Positions 20,139 to 32,739 of a DNA stretch of 32,739 bases are shown piece by piece. The translations under genes were made by a program, and so were the position numbers. Numbering within the stretch: position 1 is the first letter of the stretch; every line of letters begins with the position of its first letter. The notes under the pieces were generated by a model that worked only from the letters and a program-made list of their open reading frames with translations, did not search any database and was not told where the DNA came from. This stretch comes from an uncultured Verrucomicrobiota bacterium (GTDB lineage: Bacteria > Verrucomicrobiota > Verrucomicrobiia > Verrucomicrobiales > Akkermansiaceae), in the NCBI GenBank assembly GCA_937867415.1, contig CALMKO010000026.1, positions 1 to 32,739 on the forward strand, written 5' to 3'.

Positions 20139-20254
20139 ATGAAGAACGCCACTACCAGTTCCCCACTGCTTGCCGCCGTGCTGGCCACCTGCCTTCACGC
20201 CGCGGCCTCTCCCTCCGAAGCTCCGGCGAAGCAAGGACGCCCCAACATCCTTTT
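20139..20254 (+). pseudogene. Sulfatase gene, 5' fragment cut by an IS element
   Basis: The ATG at 20139 opens a signal peptide (MKNATTSSPLLAAVLATCLH) and the start of a sulfatase, APAKQGRPNILF, the usual first strand before the metal-binding Asp pair. The frame is then interrupted after CATCCTTTT by the left end of an IS element. The 3' fragment resumes at 21712 with a copy of the same nine bases. Joining the two restores [11 protein letters not shown] in frame. The gene follows the GH29 fucosidase by 74 bases. Confidence 0.85.
20246..20254 (+). repeat. Target-site duplication, left copy
   Basis: CATCCTTTT directly abuts the left terminal repeat of the IS element and recurs exactly at 21712-21720 beyond the right end. 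It marks the insertion site inside the sulfatase gene. Confidence 0.85.
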
Positions 20255-20270
20255 CACAGCCATCCCACAG
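20255..20270 (+). repeat. IS terminal inverted repeat, left
   Basis: CACAGCCATCCCACAG pairs with the right end at 21696-21711 with four mismatches in sixteen bases. Confidence 0.75.
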
Positions 20271-20339
20271 GATGGCATAACTTCGGCGGGAAAAACGGGC
20301 TGGTGTTGAATTGAAATCCCTGCCACTCGGTAGGGTGTT

Positions 20340-21566
20340 ATGAACAATACAACACCAACCCGCGCCAATGGGGTCGTCCTCAAGCAAATGCTCAATCTCA
20401 TTCCTCGGGGAATGATCAACCGCCACGCCCTCGAAACCGTCGTGGAGGCCAAGGCCCGCACCTTCAGCGTGGTGAGCCATCTTTCCGCGATGTTCTTCGC
20501 CCAACTCTCCCACGCCATGGGACTCAACGACGTTTGCGACTGGCTGCGCCTCAAGTCGGGTGTGCTGGCACGCTTCGGCGTCACCCCTCCATCCAGGAAC
20601 GGCCTCTCCAACGCCAACAAGGAGCGCAGCGCGGAGTTTGCGGAAAAGCTCTTTTGGTCGGTGCTGGGTCATCTCCAGCACGCCAGCCCGGATTTCGCCG
20701 CAGGGCGCAAAGGCAAAGGCTTGCTGCGACGCTTCAAGGTCAGGATCCATGCGGTGGACTCCACCGTCACCCAGTTGGTGGCCAACTGCATGGACTGGGC
20801 CAAGCACCGCCGGCGCAAGGCGGCCGCCAAGATGCACCTGCGGCTCGACCTCCACAGCTTCCTGCCCTCGTTTGCCATCGTGGACACTGCCGGACAGCAC
20901 GACAACAAACGCGCTCGCGAGGTCTGCGCGACGATCCTGTCGGGCGAAATCGTCGTGTTCGACAAGGCCTTCGTGGATTTCGAACACCTCTTCGATTTGA
21001 ACATGCGCGGCGTCTGGTGGGTCACCCGGGCCAAGGACAACATGAAATTCCGCGTAGTCAAAAATCACACCAAGGGCCACGAGAAAATCATCAAGGATCA
21101 GATCATCGCGTTGCAAGGCAAGCACAAGGGGATGACGCTGCGGCGCGTCGAAGCGTGGGTGGAAGTGGACGATGAGTGGCGGGTAATGGTTTTCATCACG
21201 AACCATACCGAGTGGAGCCCGCGTTCCGTGTGCGACCTCTATCGCCGCCGCTGGGACATCGAGGTGTTTTTCAAACAGGTCAAGCAGAGCCTCAAGCTCG
21301 GCAGCTTTCTCGGTCATAGCGCCAACGCGGTGAGATGGCAGGTTTACACGGCTTTGCTGGTGTATGTGCTGCTGCGGTTCATGGCGCACCTTTCGGCCTG
21401 GGGGCATAGCTTCACGCGGCTGTTTGCCGTCACGCGTTCGGCGTTGTGGGAGCGGCTTGATCTGTTGGCCCTGTTGAAATCCTATGGGACAGCATCCGGG
21501 CGATTCAAGGTGATCGGAGCACTCAATACGGCCTGGTTGTCGGGATTCGCACCTATCAGAATATGA
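20340..21566 (+). CDS. IS4-family DDE transposase
   Basis: The protein is 408 residues with an N-terminal domain of the type seen in IS4-group transposases (SHLSAMFFAQLSHAMGLNDV) and a DDE catalytic core. The acidic residues are visible in order: HAVDST (Asp about 140), VVFDKAFVDF (Asp about 208) and YRRRWDIEVFFKQVK, the YREK signature with Glu about 308. It cuts and joins the element's ends. There is no frameshift or premature stop, so the element may be active. A long open frame exists on the opposite strand here but is a shadow of this gene. Confidence 0.95.
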   Translation: MNNTTPTRANGVVLKQMLNLIPRGMINRHALETVVEAKARTFSVVSHLSAMFFAQLSHAMGLNDVCDWLRLKSGVLARFGVTPPSRNGLSNANKERSAEFAEKLFWSVLGHLQHASPDFAAGRKGKGLLRRFKVRIHAVDSTVTQLVANCMDWAKHRRRKAAAKMHLRLDLHSFLPSFAIVDTAGQHDNKRAREVCATILSGEIVVFDKAFVDFEHLFDLNMRGVWWVTRAKDNMKFRVVKNHTKGHEKIIKDQIIALQGKHKGMTLRRVEAWVEVDDEWRVMVFITNHTEWSPRSVCDLYRRRWDIEVFFKQVKQSLKLGSFLGHSANAVRWQVYTALLVYVLLRFMAHLSAWGHSFTRLFAVTRSALWERLDLLALLKSYGTASGRFKVIGALNTAWLSGFAPIRI

Positions 21567-21695
21567 ATTCATGGGACAGCATCGGCACTTGAATACCAGG
21601 ATATATCAACTGCTCCCAAAAATTCGCAATCGCCATTTCCCTGAATTGAACTCATGGCCTTGTAAACTCAAGGCTCAAGACGCGCCGTGCTCAGT

Positions 21696-21711
21696 CAGTG
21701 GGACGGTAGTG
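21696..21711 (-). repeat. IS terminal inverted repeat, right
   Basis: Read inward, CACTACCGTCCCACTG matches the left end at 12 of 16 positions. Confidence 0.75.
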
Positions 21712-21720
21712 CATCCTTTT
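21712..21720 (+). repeat. Target-site duplication, right copy
   Basis: CATCCTTTT is identical to 20246-20254 and is followed by the resumed sulfatase frame. Confidence 0.85.
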
Positions 21721-22654
21721 TGCCATTGCCGATGACGAAATTGTGCGCCACGACATGCTTGATTACGCTTTTGAAGTGGAGCACAGCGACAAGCACCTCG
21801 GCCGCATGATGGCGGAACTTGAAAAACGCGGCCTGTTGGAGAAAACTATTATCATTGTCACTTCGGATCACGGCATGCCCTTTCCGCGCTGCAAGGGATA
21901 CTGTTACGAGGACAGCAACCGCGTGCCGCTCGCGATCCGCTATCCCGCCGGCATGAAAAAGACCGGACGGGTGATCGATGATTTCGTCAACTTCATCGAC
22001 ATCGCTCCGACGATTCTTGATTTCGCCGGCATCGCGGAAAGGGACAGCGGCATGCAGCCCATCACGGGTGCGAGCTGGCGCCCCATCATCGAAAGCGACA
22101 AGAGCGGCCGTGTCATCGCCGCACGCGACCACACACTCATCGGCAAGGAACGCACCGACGTCGGCCGCCCGAACGATTGGGGCTACCCCATTCGCGGAAT
22201 TGTCACCGACAGTCACTTGTTCTTGAAAAACTACGAGCCGAGTCGCTGGCCCGCCGGAAATCCCGAATCCGGCTACCCGGACGCCGACACCAGCCCCACC
22301 AAAACACTCATCCTCGAAATGGGTCGCAAAAACCGTGCGGACAAGTTCTGGCAGCTCAACTTCGGCATGCTTCCCTCCGCGCAGCTATACGACCTCAAGG
22401 ACGATCCGCCTGCCGCGCGCAATCTTGCCGTGGAACCCACCTACAAGGAAACCATCACGAAATTGCGCGATCGCATGGAGGCAGAGTTAAAGTCCCAGAA
22501 TGACCCTCGCATGGCCGGAAACGGCAAAATCTTCGATGAATATCCGGTGACCACCCACGCTGGCTTCCATGAGAAGATCATGCGCGGAGAAAAAAACAAC
22601 GCCAGTTGGGTTGCCCCGACCGACTTCGAAAAGGAGCCTATCATTCAGCCATGA
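21712..22654 (+). pseudogene. Sulfatase gene, 3' fragment, lacking the catalytic-cysteine region
   Basis: After the target duplication the frame reads ILFAIADD and then passes directly to [20 protein letters not shown], a segment normally found far downstream in heparan-sulfatase-like S1 sulfatases. The intervening part, with the formylglycine motif C-x-P/A-x-R and much of the active site, is absent. The rest is present: [19 protein letters not shown] with metal-binding Asp-His, [10 protein letters not shown], and a C-terminal domain ending near EKEPIIQP. Joined across the IS, the gene would encode about 349 residues, well short of the usual 450-550. A GTG at 21743 could start a truncated product, but such a product would lack catalysis. 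Confidence 0.85.
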
Positions 22655-22715
22655 GCTACCCGTGACATTTAACTTCGCTTAGCACTCTATCGCCAACAGA
22701 TTTAACACCGCCTTG

Positions 22716-24824
22716 ATGATCCCCATGCACCATACATTCCTCATCCTGAAGCTGGCGTTTCTCGCACTCGTTACACCCCTTTCCGCCCAGATACCATTTC
22801 AATCGACAGGTGCTGTTCCGGCAGCTGGAGACTGCGCCTCGCGCGGCGTGCCGCTCACCGATCGTTGGCTCGAAGGGGATTTCCGCTTCTTCGACAGAGA
22901 TAATCCCAAATCCTCAGTTGATGCGTTCTTCGAGCGCTTTTCAGGCTACTACGAGGCGTCGAAGGATGGCGTTGCAGGCATTATGCTCAATGTTGGCTGG
23001 TTTGCCGATGTTGTGCTTGCTTACTCCGGCACCTTGGATTCCCAAGTGCCACTTGCGGTGTTTCGTCCTCTTGACGGAGAGAACTCGGGTCAAACCATGG
23101 GTGACGACGTCTGGACATATCGTCAGGTTCAAGGAGTCGTGTCCGCATTGAAGGAGGGAGCGCGCCGCCATCTTGGCAGAGAGGATTTTCGCGTGGGACT
23201 GCTGCTTCTGGGTTGGTCGTCCATCTACTATGCCGAAACTCCGGTCTGGTTCAAGGAACATCCTGAGAGTTTCCGCTGGGGGAGAAGATCGTTGACCGAT
23301 CCACATTACTTGTTTCTCGACTACGCTTCAAGCCTTCGCCCTGATTCACGGCGTTACGCTGCTTTCCCGGACGGGATCCCCGCCGCGACCCGCCTGCCTC
23401 ATTTCCTCGCCGCACAATGGGCGGAACTTAGCCGGGCCACCGGATTCGACACCCTGCTTCTTCGCGACGGGATGTTAGGTCTTTCCAGCTATCGCCATGC
23501 CTCGCCTGCCTGGGACAACGATTGTTTCGAGGGACTTCGTACCTGCCTGCGGGAAATCAAGCGCCTTGCCCCGAAGACTATGACGATCGGTTACTCGGTG
23601 GGCGGAAGTGCGATTGCGGAGTTGCGCAGCGGAAGTTTCGATCTGCGAACGCTGGCTCGCGATGGCTGCCTCGACGCTTGGATTACCCAGTCATGGGGTT
23701 GCAACTGGATTGAACAGAAACGTCTCGAACTCACTCCCGCCATGCAGGTGCCGATCATCCTTGTCCACCGGGCCCTGCTTGAAGGGACGGGAGTGAAACA
23801 CTATCCGGTGTTCAACATGCTCGACGCTTATGAGTTTCTCACCACCAAGACTTTCGCGGAGCGCTGGCAAGCGCTTCGCTGGGAGATCTGGGCCTACACG
23901 CATGCCTCGCTCAATCGCTATTGGGATACCGAAGGCACCTGGGGGCTGAAGGAAGGAGCCCCGCTATCGATGGCAAGCGGGATCTACGGTTCATGGTTCC
24001 ACGTCCGGGATCGCATGCTTTCCGCCGAGGATACCGAGCTTCTCACCCGGGAGACCGAGAAGGCAGTCACCGATGCCCGCGCCACTACGAAAATCGGCGG
24101 CATCAACATGGTGGTGCACGACGATTTCGCGCGGCGCTGCAATGGATCGGCCGATCCGTTTGCCTATCATGGTGAAAATGTTGACGAAACCGCCGGTCTG
24201 CTCGTCCGCGCCGGCTTGCCGATTCTTTCCTCATCCCGTATCACCGAGCGGGACTTTGCCAAGAACAACCAGCCTCTTCTGCTTCACAATCCGGTGAATC
24301 TGCCGCTCGACCTTCTTGCTGCCCTGAAACGTTCCCCAATTGCGTTGGTGGTGGGTTCTGCCGACACCTCCGCTGGATTCGATGCTCTGAAGTGGAACCC
24401 GGCAGAGAAATTCGATCCCCTCGGCGACGGCCGGAGACTTCGCTACGAGCTGATGCCAAAGGAGGTTTCCGATCTAAGCTCCGAAGTGTGGAAGGGCATC
24501 GGCGGGCCGCGATTCCTGACTTCTCCCGGACAATGCCTGCATCTCCAATACTGGTGGACTGCCGAGGGCAGTCTGATGCTCTTGATCGGTAACATCGAGG
24601 TCGGAGCGAAATCCGCCACTGTTGAACTGCTTCTTCCTAATGAATGGCTGAATGATCAGAAAATGTCTCCCGGTAGTCTTGTGGACTCATCCGAGCCAAA
24701 CCGGACATGGCAACCAACACGCCGAGACGAGGGGATTGTTTTCACGATTGATATGGCTGCCAACACCTCGCTGGTGTGCCAAGCAATCTCCAATTCAGCC
24801 ACACCGAAGATACGGTCGCGTTGA
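22716..24824 (+). CDS. Exported protein of unknown family, possible TIM-barrel hydrolase
   Basis: The product is 702 residues with a signal peptide (LILKLAFLALVTPLSA); ATG 22725 is an equally good start. The mature part has alternating beta and helix texture with many Trp, Asp and Glu, for example GIMLNVGWFADVVLAYSG, FDTLLLRDGMLGLSSY, DAWITQSWGCNWIEQKR and WEIWAYTHASLNRYWDTEG, consistent with a (beta/alpha)8 barrel glycosidase. The last ~130 residues look like a beta-sandwich (QYWWTAEGSLMLLIGNIEVG). I do not recognise a CAZy family. It lies between the broken and the intact sulfatase genes in the same orientation, so a role in the same polysaccharide pathway is likely but unproven. Confidence 0.7.
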   Translation: MIPMHHTFLILKLAFLALVTPLSAQIPFQSTGAVPAAGDCASRGVPLTDRWLEGDFRFFDRDNPKSSVDAFFERFSGYYEASKDGVAGIMLNVGWFADVVLAYSGTLDSQVPLAVFRPLDGENSGQTMGDDVWTYRQVQGVVSALKEGARRHLGREDFRVGLLLLGWSSIYYAETPVWFKEHPESFRWGRRSLTDPHYLFLDYASSLRPDSRRYAAFPDGIPAATRLPHFLAAQWAELSRATGFDTLLLRDGMLGLSSYRHASPAWDNDCFEGLRTCLREIKRLAPKTMTIGYSVGGSAIAELRSGSFDLRTLARDGCLDAWITQSWGCNWIEQKRLELTPAMQVPIILVHRALLEGTGVKHYPVFNMLDAYEFLTTKTFAERWQALRWEIWAYTHASLNRYWDTEGTWGLKEGAPLSMASGIYGSWFHVRDRMLSAEDTELLTRETEKAVTDARATTKIGGINMVVHDDFARRCNGSADPFAYHGENVDETAGLLVRAGLPILSSSRITERDFAKNNQPLLLHNPVNLPLDLLAALKRSPIALVVGSADTSAGFDALKWNPAEKFDPLGDGRRLRYELMPKEVSDLSSEVWKGIGGPRFLTSPGQCLHLQYWWTAEGSLMLLIGNIEVGAKSATVELLLPNEWLNDQKMSPGSLVDSSEPNRTWQPTRRDEGIVFTIDMAANTSLVCQAISNSATPKIRSR

Positions 24825-25051
24825 GTATGAAGCACTCACGAGATTTCGAGGTGCTTTCGGGTTCTGCTTTCCTTTGATTTTGTCGCAAATCGTTACGTTT
24901 TGCGCTCGCGACGGAAATAAGCCGAACAGGGCTCGATAATCCTCAGTCCCATTCCGGCCATCGGCTCTTCCGAACTCCATCATCCTCAAAGCAAAAACCC
25001 TTGCAGCCACTTCAGCACATCCCCTCTCTGATTGGCGCGCTCTTCAATCCA

Positions 25052-26422
25052 GTGACGAAATTCTTCATCATCGGCTTATGCGCCCTTCTGATCCCCAACG
25101 CTCTAAAGGCTGCGGAGCGCCCGAATATTGTCCTGATCTTTCTCGATGACGCAGCCTACTCGGACTTTCATCCCTTTGGGAAACCACCTTACGCCACGCC
25201 GAACGTCGAAAAGCTCGCCGCTGAGGGAGTTCGCTACACGCGCTTTCATGTGCCGCAGGCCGTGTGTTCCGCATCACGGGCCGCGCTGCTGACCGGATGT
25301 TACCCGCACCACAACCGCGTCGTCAGCGCTCTTGCACCTGGTGCCCCCGGGCTCGATCCCGAATTCCCGATTCTCTCGGAAACCCTCAAACAGCACGGCT
25401 ACGCCACCGCCCACTTTGGTAAATGGCACCTTGGAGATGTTCCTGCGACCCGACCAACCGCGCGAGGCTTCGACTTCCACGCGGGTTTGCTCGTCTCCAA
25501 TGACATGTGGAGGCACAATGAGTCTTGGAGAAAACACAAAGGCGAGCACCCCTTGCCCTACTGGGAAAATGGCGCGATCAAGATCCCCGACATCAGCCCT
25601 GATGACCAGAAGCACCTCACCCGCCGGGCCACCGAGGGAGCCACGCAATTCATTCGCGATCACGCAGGAAAGAACCCGTTCTTTCTCTACGTCGCGCACT
25701 CCATGCCGCATGTGCCGCTCTACTGTAGCGATGATTTCAAAGGGAAATCCGGCACGGGACTTTTTGGCGATGTGATGATGGAAATCGATTGGTCGCTGGG
25801 TGAGATTGTGAGTGAGCTCAGCGAGAGTGGCGTCGAGAACGATACCATCGTGCTCTTCACATCAGATAACGGACCTTGGGAGGAATACGGCAACCACGCG
25901 GGAAAAACTCCTTTTCGTCAACACAAGGGCACCAGTTTTGAGGGCGGGATCCGCTCGGCACTCACCGTGAAATACCCTAAACAACTCAAGCCCGGCACCG
26001 TCAACGACAGCGCGTTCGGTTCCATCGATCTTTTCCCCACAATCGCTCACCTAGCTGGTGCTCCTTTGCCCGCCAAGTCCATCGATGGCAAAAATGTCTG
26101 GCCGCTCCTGCGTGGCGATGAAGGCGCAAAGAATCCCCACGAATGTTATTTCATCTCCACCGATTGGAATCTCGAAGCCGTCATGAGTTCCGATGGAAAA
26201 TGGAAACTCCATCTGCCCCATGGTTACCGTGATGTCGTGCGGCCCGGCAATGACGGCGAGCGTGGTCTCACCAAGAGATCGCACATCGAAGAATCCCTTT
26301 TCAATCTACTCGACGATCCGCTCGAACAAACAAATGTTATCGCCAGTTACCCCGAGATCGCCACGCGACTCAAGCAAGCCGCAGAAGCTCACCTCAAACA
26401 ATATCCCCTTCCCACAGAATAA
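25052..26422 (+). CDS. Exported sulfatase, family S1 (arylsulfatase type)
   Basis: Starting from the GTG at 25052 gives 456 residues with a tidy signal peptide (TKFFIIGLCALLIPNALKA); a TTG at 25001 would add 17 residues. Sulfatase landmarks are complete: IVLIFLDDAAYSDF with the metal-binding Asp pair, AVCSASRAALLTGCYPHH with the C-x-A-x-R formylglycine motif, YATAHFGKWHLG, and VLFTSDNGPWEEYG. It would hydrolyse sulfate esters on a glycan outside the cytoplasm and needs a formylglycine-generating enzyme encoded elsewhere. The next gene starts 9 bases after its stop, so they are probably co-transcribed. S1 subfamily and regiospecificity are undetermined. Confidence 0.92.
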   Translation: MTKFFIIGLCALLIPNALKAAERPNIVLIFLDDAAYSDFHPFGKPPYATPNVEKLAAEGVRYTRFHVPQAVCSASRAALLTGCYPHHNRVVSALAPGAPGLDPEFPILSETLKQHGYATAHFGKWHLGDVPATRPTARGFDFHAGLLVSNDMWRHNESWRKHKGEHPLPYWENGAIKIPDISPDDQKHLTRRATEGATQFIRDHAGKNPFFLYVAHSMPHVPLYCSDDFKGKSGTGLFGDVMMEIDWSLGEIVSELSESGVENDTIVLFTSDNGPWEEYGNHAGKTPFRQHKGTSFEGGIRSALTVKYPKQLKPGTVNDSAFGSIDLFPTIAHLAGAPLPAKSIDGKNVWPLLRGDEGAKNPHECYFISTDWNLEAVMSSDGKWKLHLPHGYRDVVRPGNDGERGLTKRSHIEESLFNLLDDPLEQTNVIASYPEIATRLKQAAEAHLKQYPLPTE

Positions 26423-26431
26423 AATCACCCG

Positions 26432-29400
26432 ATGAAAACCCGGTATATCAAATCAATTGTTTTAACCTGTCTTGTTCTGGCCAACCATCCGACTGTCCAC
26501 GCCGAGGTGGCGGGTTCAGCCGAAACGGAGAAGCCTGCGACAACCGCACTCGAAGCCAAGACCTTGGCCGATATCCGGGGATGGGGTGAGTTGAAAGCCG
26601 GCAATGGCCCACTGGGGCGTCCGCTGCCTCTCGCCGCCAGTTGGGCCGCCGGAGCCGGCCCCTATGGGCTCGTCTTTGGCAACGGAAAGTCGATTGGTGA
26701 TCCTGTGCATGACTATTTCGTGATTGATCCCCTTCATGGGCCCGGCCCTGACCGGATGATCGAGGAAATCAAAAAGGGCAAACACGTGATGATCACGTTT
26801 GAAGATGTGGTCGGCGCTGGTGGCATCCACCGTCCTGCATCAAGGTTTGAGAAAGATCCCGGATATGTAAGATTCTTTGACAAATACTATCGACCGGCCC
26901 TCGAATATGCCCGGACTCACAAATTGCCTATCGCCATCCGGGGCTGGAACTGGGCCTTGACCCTCGTCGATGTTGAAAATGGTGTGCCGGGGCGCGGTCG
27001 TGCCACCCAGGAGCAGGGCCCCGACGATACCGCCAAGCTGATTCGGAACGGCAAAGTCCTGAACAAGGTGGCCGATCCCTTCGGTTCGATCGCTCGTTGG
27101 CAGGAATTCGGCAAGATCTGGATGGGGCATGAGGTGATGAGGAAAATCCAGGAGATTTATCCGAATCCGCCCATGGTGGTCTTCATCAACAACCATGAAG
27201 GTGGAGAGATTACCAGTGCATCCGGAATAGATGATACCTGCGATCGCTTTGTAGCGCTGTATGGAAAGGGCAAAGACCTGGACTTCCGGGCAAAAAAGAT
27301 TCGTGAAGGATATACCGAGCGTTACGAAGCGCTCTTTGCCTCCGCCCGCGCCGCCTTCGTCCAGCCAGCTTGGCGGGAAAACTCCCTGTTCATTGCATAT
27401 AACAATCTGGGGGCACAGGCTCTCACACGCGGAGCCACCTCCAAAACACAATGGACTGGCAGGATCAATTTGGATCCTGAATCCGGCCTTGTTGAACATC
27501 GGAAGTATGATGGAGGAACTCCCGAGTATTACGACAACCACTGGCAAGCGCCGGCCAAAAGTGATGCCAGTCCGTGGAGTCCTCAAGTGGAAGCCAGCAA
27601 TCTGATTGCGTATCAGGATAGCAAGGTCTGGGCGGAGAATCCCAACTTCTATTGGTCGTCCAGCCTTTGGGGCGGAGACATGCCGTCAAACCTCTTCGGT
27701 CGCCCGGGGCGTTACATCACGGACGGAGCGGAACCCAATGCGAAATGGGATCTGAACCGTTACTCCGGGATGGTCCAGTTCGGGTTGTGGATGTTGCGGC
27801 CACGTGAGTATCGGGAGTTCCGTGGTGAGGACGATTTGCGCGGATTCTACGGGGCGGCTTGGGATGTGCTGGTGCAATCGGTGGACCGTGTTTGGAATGA
27901 TGCCACACTCACCGAGTTCTGGAAATTCGGGAAACTCGTGCACAATCCTGTGTTCGGCGAGAGAAATCATTACTTCGGCAGCGTTCCCACCATGCCAGCT
28001 TGGCTTCGCGATATGGATCGCTGGTTTTTGCTTACCAGCGATGCCAACCCCGCTGAGTCCACTTGGCCTGTCTACAATCTTCTCAAGAAGGAGCATGCCC
28101 TGAAGGTTTTTGCCCTTGCCCTCCAGTTGGGTGAAAGCCCCAAGCGCCGGTGGTTGATCTATGCCCATGCGCCTCTGGGCGCTGTGGCCGGTTCCTCGGT
28201 CGAGCTTCCCGGCAAAGGCGCAGTGCTGCTGGATTACATCTCGACAGGTGGTTCCTTTTACTTGGTGGACGAGGCTACGGGGAAAGCGAACGCACTTGTA
28301 CGCGGGGGACCTGCGGAAATTGCCTTGGAATCCAACGCCCGGCATATCAAGCCCGGTTCGACGATCGAAGTGGAGGCAAGTCTTCGAAATCCCGCCAGCG
28401 CCCCTTTCGAAAGCTACACCTGGCGCGTGCCAGGCCAGGCGGATCGCACCAACGCGACACTCGGAAAGCAGAGCTTCTCATTCCCCAATGCGGGAGAATA
28501 CATGATCACCTTGGAAGCTTCGACCAAGGCAGGCGAAAAGACTGTGGGTCAGATGCCGGTCTGGGTGCGTCCGAGTCCTCCCGCCGAGAATGCCGTGGTC
28601 GATATGCCACTCTCCGGTTCGTATTCGGACAAGGGTCCGTGGGGAACTGAGATGAAAAGCGGGAAACTGCTTACATTCCGTTACCTACCGAATGCTTCGA
28701 TCTCTTTCGATCATGCTCCGGTATTGCTTGGAGGGCAGTTTGTAAATGATTCAAACATGGGACCCGTGCTCGAAGTCAACGGAGCGGATGAGGGAGTGAT
28801 TATCCCCCGTTCAAGCAGCACGATCATGGATTCTCAAGGCCACGCGGATTTGGCCATTGGGTTCAAGTTCAAGGCAGAAGATGTTCAACGGTTGCAACAA
28901 CTTTATGCCCAAGGCTGGGCTGAGCGTCCGGGAATCAGCATCTATCTGGAAGGAGGACAGCTTCATGCGGGCTCTTGGTGCATGAACAAGGACAAATCCC
29001 TAAACTTTCCCGGAGAGTGGATCAGCACGCCCGTTGAGGCAGGAAAGTGGTATCAGGTTCGCTTCGTCATGAAGGATGCTGAACCCGCACCTCGTTCGGG
29101 TGTGGCCACACTTTACGTCGATGGCAAATCAGTCGGTTCAGCCTCCGCAGCCCGATTGCCCCAACATTACGGCAACCCGCGGTTGAGTGTGGCCGGACTC
29201 GCGATGAAATCCGCCACAAAGAGCGGCGTTCTGATGGGAAAAGAAAACTTCTTCAATGGATGCTTTGCAGACTTCACCTTCATCACAGGCGGGCCGGCGC
29301 TTGCCGGAGACCGGAACGGAACGGTCAAAAATCTTCCTTTGCGTGCGATCAATATCGGCGGAGAGAAACTGCGCGGTTCTTCGGGAATCATTTATGAAGC

Positions 29401-29794
29401 GGACTCTGGTGGCACCGGCGGCAGTGTCCAAACCATCTTGGCCACCCTTCCGGTTGAGGCGGAGTCCGACCAGGATGTTTATCGCTCATTTCGATCAGGC
29501 GCTTCGTTCCAATATCAGTTTCCACTTTCGAATGGTGATTACAGCGTGCTGCTCAAATTCATCGAACCCGAGCATCGTTCCACCCCCCGGCGGATAGACG
29601 TGAGTCTCCAAGGAAAGACTGTCCTCAAGGGGCTCGATGTACAGGCGAAGGTCGGTGTTCTCAAAGAACACGAAGTGAAATTGCCAGCCCGGGTGACAGA
29701 CGGGAAACTCACCTTGAAGTTCACCGGAACTGCTGGCGAAGCGCTGCTTGCCGGACTGGTGATCGAGAAAGCTTCCCCGTCTCCCCAGAAGTAG
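26432..29794 (+). CDS. Giant exported protein: unassigned catalytic-like domain, PKD-like, LamG-like and malectin-like modules
   Basis: The protein is 1120 residues with a signal peptide (IVLTCLVLANHPTVHA). Residues ~60-560 form a conserved domain shared with the next gene, including PIAIRGWNWALTLVDVENG, KVADPFGSIARWQEFGKIW and MVVFINNHEGGEI; Glu256 and Glu259 are candidate active-site acids. Residues ~635-720 are a PKD-like beta-sandwich. Residues ~725-970 are a LamG/concanavalin-like domain with WISTPVEAGKWYQVRFVMKD and ATLYVDGKSVGSA. Residues ~985-1113 resemble a malectin domain (AINIGGEKL, YEADSGGTGG, DVYRSFRSGASFQYQFPLSN, GDYSVLLKFIEP). It probably binds and may cleave the target polysaccharide. 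The N-terminal family is not recognised. Confidence 0.78.
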   Translation: MKTRYIKSIVLTCLVLANHPTVHAEVAGSAETEKPATTALEAKTLADIRGWGELKAGNGPLGRPLPLAASWAAGAGPYGLVFGNGKSIGDPVHDYFVIDPLHGPGPDRMIEEIKKGKHVMITFEDVVGAGGIHRPASRFEKDPGYVRFFDKYYRPALEYARTHKLPIAIRGWNWALTLVDVENGVPGRGRATQEQGPDDTAKLIRNGKVLNKVADPFGSIARWQEFGKIWMGHEVMRKIQEIYPNPPMVVFINNHEGGEITSASGIDDTCDRFVALYGKGKDLDFRAKKIREGYTERYEALFASARAAFVQPAWRENSLFIAYNNLGAQALTRGATSKTQWTGRINLDPESGLVEHRKYDGGTPEYYDNHWQAPAKSDASPWSPQVEASNLIAYQDSKVWAENPNFYWSSSLWGGDMPSNLFGRPGRYITDGAEPNAKWDLNRYSGMVQFGLWMLRPREYREFRGEDDLRGFYGAAWDVLVQSVDRVWNDATLTEFWKFGKLVHNPVFGERNHYFGSVPTMPAWLRDMDRWFLLTSDANPAESTWPVYNLLKKEHALKVFALALQLGESPKRRWLIYAHAPLGAVAGSSVELPGKGAVLLDYISTGGSFYLVDEATGKANALVRGGPAEIALESNARHIKPGSTIEVEASLRNPASAPFESYTWRVPGQADRTNATLGKQSFSFPNAGEYMITLEASTKAGEKTVGQMPVWVRPSPPAENAVVDMPLSGSYSDKGPWGTEMKSGKLLTFRYLPNASISFDHAPVLLGGQFVNDSNMGPVLEVNGADEGVIIPRSSSTIMDSQGHADLAIGFKFKAEDVQRLQQLYAQGWAERPGISIYLEGGQLHAGSWCMNKDKSLNFPGEWISTPVEAGKWYQVRFVMKDAEPAPRSGVATLYVDGKSVGSASAARLPQHYGNPRLSVAGLAMKSATKSGVLMGKENFFNGCFADFTFITGGPALAGDRNGTVKNLPLRAINIGGEKLRGSSGIIYEADSGGTGGSVQTILATLPVEAESDQDVYRSFRSGASFQYQFPLSNGDYSVLLKFIEPEHRSTPRRIDVSLQGKTVLKGLDVQAKVGVLKEHEVKLPARVTDGKLTLKFTGTAGEALLAGLVIEKASPSPQK

Positions 29795-29818
29795 AACATG
29801 TTACCTAACAACTGTATC

Positions 29819-32739
29819 ATGATATCATTAAAGAAACTCCCGATCATCATTCCCGCGGCGGCCGGGGCTCTGTATGTCCTAAGCACAGGCATGACTGCGG
29901 AGGAGGAAGTGTGGACTCCCGAAAGTCTATATGCACCGAGGTTGTCGGATAAGACGGTGCGCGGCAGCGGCGGTCCCGCAAGAGTCGAGTTCAAAGACTT
30001 CATTGATCTGAAACTCGTGGCCGCGGCTCCAGCGTCGGACGTCGATGCTTCCCGGGCGGCCACTGACCTCGAAGCCTGGAGCACGCAGCCCGCCACCAGT
30101 CCCCAGGGCCGGCCGCTACCGGTCGCGATGCACATGTTGGATGACGATCCGCAGTATGTGGCTGGTTTGGTCAAGGCAGGTCATCATGTGATGCCGATGC
30201 TCGATAACCCTGTCTTTCGTGTGCATCACGACACGATCCTTACGCCGAAAAACGCGGCCCGGTTGGATGAGCTGTGGGAGAAGGACTGGAAGCCTCGCCT
30301 GGAGGAGGCCCGCAAGCTCAAGTTGCCGATAATGTTTTTCGGCGGGAACTGGGCGGTTGATCTCGTCGATTACGAGGCACGGCGCATCAAGTTCGGCAAG
30401 GAGGAAATCCCCAAGGAGAAGCGCGCGGCTGTGAGCATCGTCGGAGACAGGATCTACAACAAGATCGCCGACCCGCTTGGCCCCACGGAGGCATGGAAGG
30501 AGTATGGCCGGTTCTGGACTGGGAATGTGATCATGAAACGCATGCAGGAGGTTTATCCCGACCCGCCATTGGTTCTCTTCGGAGACAACGCCGAAACCGG
30601 GGAATTGCACGACCTGAACATGTTCATGAAATCCGAGCGATTTCAGGCGAAGCATGGCCAAGGCCCGCACACGCCGGCTTTCGCAGCCAAGATCTTGCAG
30701 GACGGCTACCGCGAGCGCTACACAGCCATGTTCGCAGAGGTCAGAAACGCTCTGGTCTCGCCCGCATGGAAGAAGAACATTCGTTTCCTCGCATACAACA
30801 CCTTTTGGGAGCATTCTGCCATCGGCAGCAACGGTCCCAGGGCAGGTTTCGACTACGATCCTCAGGAGGGATGGCGGCGCTGGCAGAGCTACGAGGGTAG
30901 CATCCCCGAGCTTTATGATAATGACTGGCAGCCCGGCAAGCGCGACAACGTCCCGTTTTCGATGCAGGTTGAGTCTGGCAACTACTATGCGATGCAGGAG
31001 CGGGTGTTCGACGAGCGCCCCGATTTCTGGTGGACATCCTTCGTTTGGGACGGCGCTGTGGTATCGGAGGTCTTCCGCGGCACACGCGGCACATCCAAGC
31101 CTTTCTGGTATGTGTCGCGGGGTGAGCGGTGGAGTTTCCCACGATACGAGGGATGGTTGCAGTTTTCCCTCTGGGCGACCCGCCCGCGACTCTCGATCGA
31201 ATTCCGCGCAAAAGAACCGAAGGATGCCATCCGAAAAGGAATCTGGCAATCCTTGGTCACTATCGTGGACCGCCCGTGGAACCATCCGGTGCTCGGCGAG
31301 TTTTGGAGACATGGCGAACTTGTGCCCAACACAGCCGAACGCCCGTGGTTCGACGAGTTGCCTGACGATGTGCCGGATTGGATGAAGAAACTGAACCGCT
31401 GGTATATTCTGACCACCGATGCGAACCCTGCACGGGAGTCATGGGATCAAGAAACGACTCTCAACGTGTTCGCGCAGGCTTTGGTCCTGGGCGATGCGCC
31501 GAATCGACGCTGGCTTGTCAATGCCCATGCGCCCAATGGAAACGTGATGAACGCCGGGGTCTCGATTCCAGGATACGGGAATATTCGTCTTCCCTCTGTA
31601 TCGTTGAGCGGATCGTTTTTCGAAATCAGTGAGTCTGACCGCACCGTGCGTCCCATCCTCGATGGTGGACCACACGAGATTCGGGTTCGCGTGTCGGATT
31701 CCCCGTCGCCGAGGCTGCCAAAATGGATCAAGCCCGGCGACGAGATCGCGCTTGATGCGGCGATTCACGCGCCCGGCCAGAAGTTCCGTCGGTTTCATTG
31801 GAACTTCGGTGACGGCAAGACGCTCGAGTCGCGGCAGCCCGGACAAGTGAAGCACCGTTTCGAGAAACCGGGTGTCTATCTGGTGACTGCCACGGCAGAA
31901 GCACAAGAGGGCGCGCCTCTGGTCGATCAGATTGCGATCTATGTAGGAGATTCACCGCCGGAATCAGTGGCTTACGACCTTCCGCTCGACGATGCCATCG
32001 CATGGGAAGGGCCCTGGTCCGGAGTGGGGGATGAAGGTCAGACGCTGGCAACCTACCGCCACACAGCCAACCGCAGTGCATCCGTTCCGGCAGCAGTGGT
32101 GACGGGCGGGCGCTTTGTTGATGATTCCCAACGTGGCAGAGTGTTTGAGATAGACGAAGAACACGGTGGCATTTGGTTGATGCGCGGCAGGCCAACCGTG
32201 ATCAGCGCCGGGAAAAGCATCGCCAACAGGACGATCTCTCTCTGGTTCAACGCTGAGGATGTGAACAAGCGACAGGTGCTCTATGCTTCCGGGTTGGCGG
32301 AGGTAGGCGTCAATATCTACCTCGACAAGGGCAGGCTTTATGCAGGCAGCTGGGCGACCGTTGATGGCATAAAGGGCACACAGAACCCACTCCGCGGCTA
32401 CAACTGGAAAGGCGATTGGATCGACACGCCGGTGGAACCCGGTCGGTGGTATCAGGTCGCCTGGGTCCTGAAGGACGGAGCGGACAAGGTCGAACCCGAC
32501 CGGCAGCACCTCTACCTCGACGGAAAACTGGTTGGCAAGGCACCCGGTGCGGCCATCCCGGCCGAATACGTGCCGCCGCGTGTTGGTCGGACGAACTTGG
32601 ACGGCGGGGATGGACAGACCAGTGGGGCGACATCATCACTCACCCGCTTTCACGACCAAGATCGCATCGACGCACTCAAGGGACCGGAGCGAGTGAAGGC
32701 CAATGCCATCCCGACATTCCGCGGTCGGCTTGATGAATT
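29819..32739 (+). CDS. Second giant exported protein, tandem relative of the preceding gene (partial, C-terminus missing)
   Basis: The frame from the ATG at 29819 is open to the right edge (973 codons); an ATG at 29798 would add seven residues. A signal-like hydrophobic stretch follows MISLKKLP. The N-terminal domain aligns by eye with the previous protein: LPIMFFGGNWAVDLVDYEA, YNKIADPLGPTEAWKEYGRF and LVLFGDNAETGEL; the Glu in DNAE corresponds to Glu256 there. A clear PKD motif, FHWNFGDGKTLES, follows, then a LamG-like domain with WIDTPVEPGRWYQVAWVLKD and HLYLDGKLVGKA. The gene starts 24 bases after the previous stop, and divergence is substantial, so the duplication is old. Confidence 0.78.
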   Translation, partial: MISLKKLPIIIPAAAGALYVLSTGMTAEEEVWTPESLYAPRLSDKTVRGSGGPARVEFKDFIDLKLVAAAPASDVDASRAATDLEAWSTQPATSPQGRPLPVAMHMLDDDPQYVAGLVKAGHHVMPMLDNPVFRVHHDTILTPKNAARLDELWEKDWKPRLEEARKLKLPIMFFGGNWAVDLVDYEARRIKFGKEEIPKEKRAAVSIVGDRIYNKIADPLGPTEAWKEYGRFWTGNVIMKRMQEVYPDPPLVLFGDNAETGELHDLNMFMKSERFQAKHGQGPHTPAFAAKILQDGYRERYTAMFAEVRNALVSPAWKKNIRFLAYNTFWEHSAIGSNGPRAGFDYDPQEGWRRWQSYEGSIPELYDNDWQPGKRDNVPFSMQVESGNYYAMQERVFDERPDFWWTSFVWDGAVVSEVFRGTRGTSKPFWYVSRGERWSFPRYEGWLQFSLWATRPRLSIEFRAKEPKDAIRKGIWQSLVTIVDRPWNHPVLGEFWRHGELVPNTAERPWFDELPDDVPDWMKKLNRWYILTTDANPARESWDQETTLNVFAQALVLGDAPNRRWLVNAHAPNGNVMNAGVSIPGYGNIRLPSVSLSGSFFEISESDRTVRPILDGGPHEIRVRVSDSPSPRLPKWIKPGDEIALDAAIHAPGQKFRRFHWNFGDGKTLESRQPGQVKHRFEKPGVYLVTATAEAQEGAPLVDQIAIYVGDSPPESVAYDLPLDDAIAWEGPWSGVGDEGQTLATYRHTANRSASVPAAVVTGGRFVDDSQRGRVFEIDEEHGGIWLMRGRPTVISAGKSIANRTISLWFNAEDVNKRQVLYASGLAEVGVNIYLDKGRLYAGSWATVDGIKGTQNPLRGYNWKGDWIDTPVEPGRWYQVAWVLKDGADKVEPDRQHLYLDGKLVGKAPGAAIPAEYVPPRVGRTNLDGGDGQTSGATSSLTRFHDQDRIDALKGPERVKANAIPTFRGRLDE

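Follow-up and report, generated by a model that had tools for sequence, protein, structure and literature searches.

The window, that is, the whole stretch of 32,739 nucleotides analysed here, comes from an uncultured bacterium of the Akkermansiaceae and contains a gene for a sulfatase, an enzyme that cleaves sulfate off sugars, with an IS4-family element inside it (Table 1). The gene starts with an ATG at 20139 and ends with a stop codon at 22652-22654. When its two pieces are joined, a single frame of exactly 350 codons is obtained (349 residues plus the stop) without any internal stop. This agrees with a preliminary description of the window, in which joining the pieces across one copy of the 9-base duplication had given a frame of about 350 codons and the same reading at the junction. 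The locus also holds a neighbouring gene with a full sulfatase domain and the motif CSASR, two alpha-L-fucosidase-family genes, a sugar transporter, a sigma factor and a weakly FecR-like gene that stays below the Pfam cut-off. These neighbouring genes suggest that the locus targets a fucose-containing glycan.

Table 1. Positions in the window of the interrupted sulfatase gene, the inserted element and the genes downstream.
Feature	Position	Strand	Remarks
Sulfatase gene, whole	20139..22654		IS4-family element inside
5' piece of sulfatase gene	20139..20254	+	signal peptide and RPNILF; 38 codons plus 2 bases
Target-site duplication, left copy CATCCTTTT	20246..20254		9 bp
IS4-family insertion sequence	20255..21711	+	1457 bp; imperfect terminal inverted repeats
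IS4-family transposase	20340..21566	+	408 aa; intact frame; Y-x2-R-x3-E-x6-K present
Target-site duplication, right copy CATCCTTTT	21712..21720		9/9 bases identical to left copy
3' piece of sulfatase gene	21721..22654	+	end of IADD, deletion junction, last part of sulfatase domain, C-terminal region
GATGAC, single remaining copy of Asp-Asp codon repeat	21731..21736	+	at junction of 546-bp deletion
Gene of 703-aa protein	22713..24824		adjoins the broken sulfatase gene
Neighbouring sulfatase gene	25001..26422		
Large tandem paralogue	26432..29794		
Large tandem paralogue	29798..32737		

The remaining parts of the gene are homologous to intact S1 sulfatases. The RPNILF motif of the 5' piece is also present near the N-terminus of relatives; a Pfam search with this 38-residue piece yields no family match. 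Both Sulfatase and SGSH_C score above the Pfam cut-off in the 3' piece, where the former is matched only at profile positions 205-301 of 301 and the whole-length domain is absent. Also absent from the joined translation is C-x-[PAST]-x-R, the cysteine motif of S1 (formylglycine) sulfatases. The remnant nevertheless reaches 53.9 bits against a Pfam sulfatase cut-off of 25, meaning that sulfatase counts can include dead genes.

The inserted element is an ordinary member of the IS4 family as defined in NCBIfam (NF033592), without unusual features. Its imperfect ends share CAC..CC.TCCCAC. The transposase carries the Pfam domains DUF4372 and DDE_Tnp_1, the latter matched at profile positions 7-200 of 200, and scores 230 bits against the NCBIfam model (cut-off 115); Y-x2-R-x3-E-x6-K is the transposase signature of this family. 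An IS4 insertion in the sulfatase had been proposed from the outset, and the intact transposase, the perfect 9-bp duplication and the strong family match bear it out. Full-length relatives of the element, 87-89% identical, occur in three congeneric genomes and match its bases 1-1457, 1-1456 and 1-1457, and the element boundaries are therefore real. Two related copies, L109 and L110, lack a clear 9-bp duplication in the flanking stretches compared. Matches at E<=1e-50 are present in 23 of the 260 family genomes, the window's own included, and within its own assembly the element is single-copy. The intact frame together with the perfect duplication suggests that the insertion is recent.

Compared with its relatives, the joined protein lacks 182 residues (546 bp) between IADD and EIVRHD, the CAPSR cysteine motif included. 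Measurements were possible for 25 of the 26 non-identical close relatives, and the loss amounts to 182 residues against 24 of these; the exception is L122, with a separate deletion. In a scan of genome contigs, RPN or a variant of it was found at 66 of 80 loci, in all 66 cases 191-198 residues before the VRHDML position, against 13 residues in the window. The difference can be seen most directly in L004 (Prosthecobacter sp. isolate VE4, NZ_JACSRD010000085.1), an intact S1 sulfatase with 81% identity over 303 C-terminal residues. It shares its N-terminal motif with the window gene, but its frame runs through without interruption and contains the 182-residue core, of which CAPSR is part.

The wider set leads to the same picture. 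From 125 loci examined, 10 duplicates and 11 loci without the C-terminal motif were set aside, which left 104 distinct homologues with that motif. C-x-[PAST]-x-R is present in 100 of them, the other four (L029, L032, L041 and L132) being cut by a contig start. Three of the 11 excluded loci (L095, L102 and L103) align with an intact relative over nearly the whole length, three more (L090, L046 and L107) are truncated at contig ends, L002 (27% identity over most of the length) and L003 (24% over about the first two thirds) are distant sulfatases, and L104-L106 are pieces of other sulfatases of the window's own genome. L029, L032, L041, L046, L090 and L132 were rejected as naturally short forms because the contig ends there. 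The preliminary description had claimed the in-frame loss of a catalytic core of 150-200 residues with C-x-P/A-x-R, and had named homologues naturally lacking this segment as evidence that would speak against it. The first holds, with 182 residues measured and the motif present in relatives; the second were looked for and not found among the 104 measured relatives, none of the relatives measured having the window's deletion either. Relocation or shuffling of the core to another place in the own genome was likewise rejected, as the best match there is only about 40% identical; it lies in another sulfatase, L107 (contig C344, 7245-8063), which breaks off where the contig ends.

Both ends of the missing segment carry Asp-Asp codon pairs in many relatives. 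On the N-terminal side all 25 close relatives measured read ADD|W, and on the C-terminal side Asp-Asp precedes EIV, DIV or KIV in 14 of the 25. In these 14 relatives the two pairs share one codon register, and a slip between them therefore keeps the frame. Identical bases at both breakpoints extend over 8 bp in L004 and L012 and 6 in L013; the remaining 22 have 0-3. Short repeats are familiar sites of deletion, and an in-frame slip between the Asp-Asp pairs is a plausible natural mechanism, in which the length of the slipped repeat is judged from relatives. Slippage between two such pairs had been suggested before; the paired codons make it plausible, but the 6-8 shared bases exist in only three of the 25 relatives.

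We therefore read the gene as carrying two lesions. An in-frame deletion of 546 bp between codon-aligned Asp-Asp pairs (IADD|W... and ...PDD|EIV) removed 182 residues along with the active-site cysteine motif, most likely via replication slippage or another short-repeat process. An IS4-family element inserted shortly after the signal-peptide region, giving rise to the 9-bp duplication. On this evidence the gene is very probably a recently inactivated S1-type (formylglycine) sulfatase gene, hit by both an in-frame core deletion and an IS4-family insertion, and either lesion alone should abolish sulfatase activity.

The timing was analysed with a codon model (12 sequences, 301 codons, fixed FastTree topology). 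Omega is 0.066 on the window branch against 0.044 elsewhere, which is not a significant difference (2dlnL 2.3), and a smaller set of 9 sequences gives 0.073 against 0.044 (2dlnL 3.5, again not significant). An omega of 1 on the window branch is rejected by about 45 log units (lnL -5964.9 vs -5919.4). The best-fitting neutral tail is 0.05 substitutions per codon, indistinguishable from zero, with an interpolated bound of about 0.17. These fits show purifying selection on the remaining codons along nearly all of the window's branch, and the loss of the sulfatase is therefore recent. The perfect duplication and the clean frame, taken together with the codon-model fit, lead to the same conclusion for the inactivation as a whole. 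If 0.1 indels per substitution are assumed, a clean frame has a probability of about 0.001 at the upper bound and about 0.1 at the best value. Since a clean frame is unlikely at the upper bound, the inactivation probably dates from the younger end of this range.

Of 28 sequences compared, that of the window has the largest number of private changes at 107 otherwise invariant columns, namely 6 (0-4 in the others), in a count where near-identical pairs score low by construction. Its terminal branch in the protein tree is long (0.24-0.25 vs 0.02 in L004), as is the fitted codon branch. Relaxed constraint on the window gene is not claimed, because the branch-omega test is not significant and the intact L010, one of the control branches, lies at least as far from the background (omega about 0.10; 2dlnL 3.5 with 9 sequences and 5.5 with 12).

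Relatives with one lesion only were not seen in searches of the family and order genomes, which scored at most 9 and 6 first-look candidates per genome, respectively, so that a match may be missed. Matches at E<=1e-110 occur in four of the 260 family genomes. One is the window's own, and in the remaining three the gene is 57-67% identical and its frame 535-692 aa long. At E<=1e-140, 24 of 386 order genomes have a match (the window's own included), and 22 of the 23 others have frames of at least 519 aa, while the 23rd, L132 (335 aa), begins at a contig edge.

The insertion and the deletion are likely separate events, although they lie close together: only 10 bp separate the end of the IS duplication from the Asp-Asp deletion repeat that follows (window 20246-21736), and the chance that two random positions in 1050 bp fall within 15 bp of each other is about 3%. 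Unrelated events leave this proximity unexplained, whereas it would follow if the IS had made the adjoining DNA deletion-prone or if both lesions had followed one break. Such a mechanistic link is nonetheless unlikely in our view. Classical IS-adjacent deletions begin at the element's end, but in the window the duplication survives in both copies together with the next 10 bases, and a single distance spotted after the fact carries little weight.

With its 470 contigs the assembly is a draft, and one or both junctions might be absent from the organism as a result of misassembly or of a strain chimaera. We consider this very improbable. The 9-bp duplication is perfect and the ends of the element agree with those in other genomes. 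Moreover, the measured relatives have no more than 8 bp of homology at the junction, which would be below the usual overlaps of assemblers. As the element is found once in the assembly, repeat collapse need not be invoked either, though unbinned copies are possible.

There is scarcely any likelihood that a core-less sulfatase-like protein (for instance a glycan-binding or regulatory pseudoenzyme) was kept for its function until the IS landed: the joined 350-codon frame without stop or frameshift and the C-terminal codons with omega far below 1 would fit, but recent loss predicts the same data, with the low omega explained by the functional past, the shortened form occurs in no measured relative, and an alpha/beta domain without its 182 middle residues would hardly stay folded. 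A related and highly doubtful idea starts from the Asp-Asp codon pairs that flank the core in register in 14 of the 25 close relatives; because of these, the gene lineage could have a built-in weak site for frame-preserving core loss, in which case core-less forms might recur and sometimes be kept as non-catalytic proteins. The sulfatase gene of the window is instead a real, recent and doubly broken pseudogene, a case of ordinary gene decay.

The nearest homologue of this pseudogene is 81% identical and belongs to a genome of another family (f4, genus g8), whereas the best match elsewhere in its own family, from a congener, reaches 67%. In DNA the gene of the f4 genome equals L004 over the part compared. 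Record titles are not all consistent here: L010, from the same group, is titled Akkermansia muciniphila. In the protein tree the window adjoins L004 with a support of 0.80-0.85, on a long branch of its own. The gene at 1207-2382 of the same contig, which we take from its translation to be SbcD-like, is most similar to genes of the window's own genus (77% and 71%). Since the nearest homologue lies in another family and the best congener is clearly more distant, the sulfatase was likely acquired late from another lineage and then lost, as far as sequence comparison can tell. Regarding gene order, the other window genes tested are unmatched at 99 loci (L004-L083 and L085-L103; tblastn E<=1e-15), many of which have short flanks; as exceptions, L098 has short matches to the transposase, and the neighbouring sulfatase gene draws generic sulfatase matches of at most 42%. 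The best solved relative of the intact L004 is an S1_8A sulfatase (PDB 9bb9 / 9bes, E 2.4e-34). This is a distant one, and its substrate is not transferable to the window gene, which has no matching core. Published work on this sulfatase gene was not found at the level of abstracts.

Elsewhere in the genome 10 other places score above the Pfam sulfatase cut-off (two C344 pieces counted as one; some may be other superfamily enzymes), and there are 5 places with an FGE domain. What has been lost is therefore one enzyme rather than sulfatase chemistry as such, and the loss of one desulfation step is plausible. Gene loss is seen here with clarity in a locus for glycan degradation, with the neighbouring fucosidase and sulfatase genes still open, and the sulfatase being discarded has its closest known kin in another family. 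Well preserved as it is, the case is an ordinary one of recent gene loss.

Some further observations concern the surroundings and the relatives. The 703-aa protein has no Pfam or NCBIfam match at E<=0.001, and among the 260 family genomes it is found only in its own genome at E<=1e-60. The large tandem paralogues downstream share 34% identity over 936 aligned columns; Pfam finds Malectin and Laminin_G-like domains in one and PKD and Laminin_G-like domains in the other, and each has more than 600 N-terminal residues without a family. In the 77% homologue L122 (genome G366, contig C117), the same sulfatase gene has likewise lost an internal stretch in frame. This deletion covers 36 residues (108 bp) against 182 in the window, lies at another place, leaves the Cys motif in place and comes without an insertion. 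It is independent of the window's deletion and represents a second case of frame-preserving loss in the sulfatase gene. In L006 and L010, AGCC can be read by eye at both ends of the stretch that is missing in L122.
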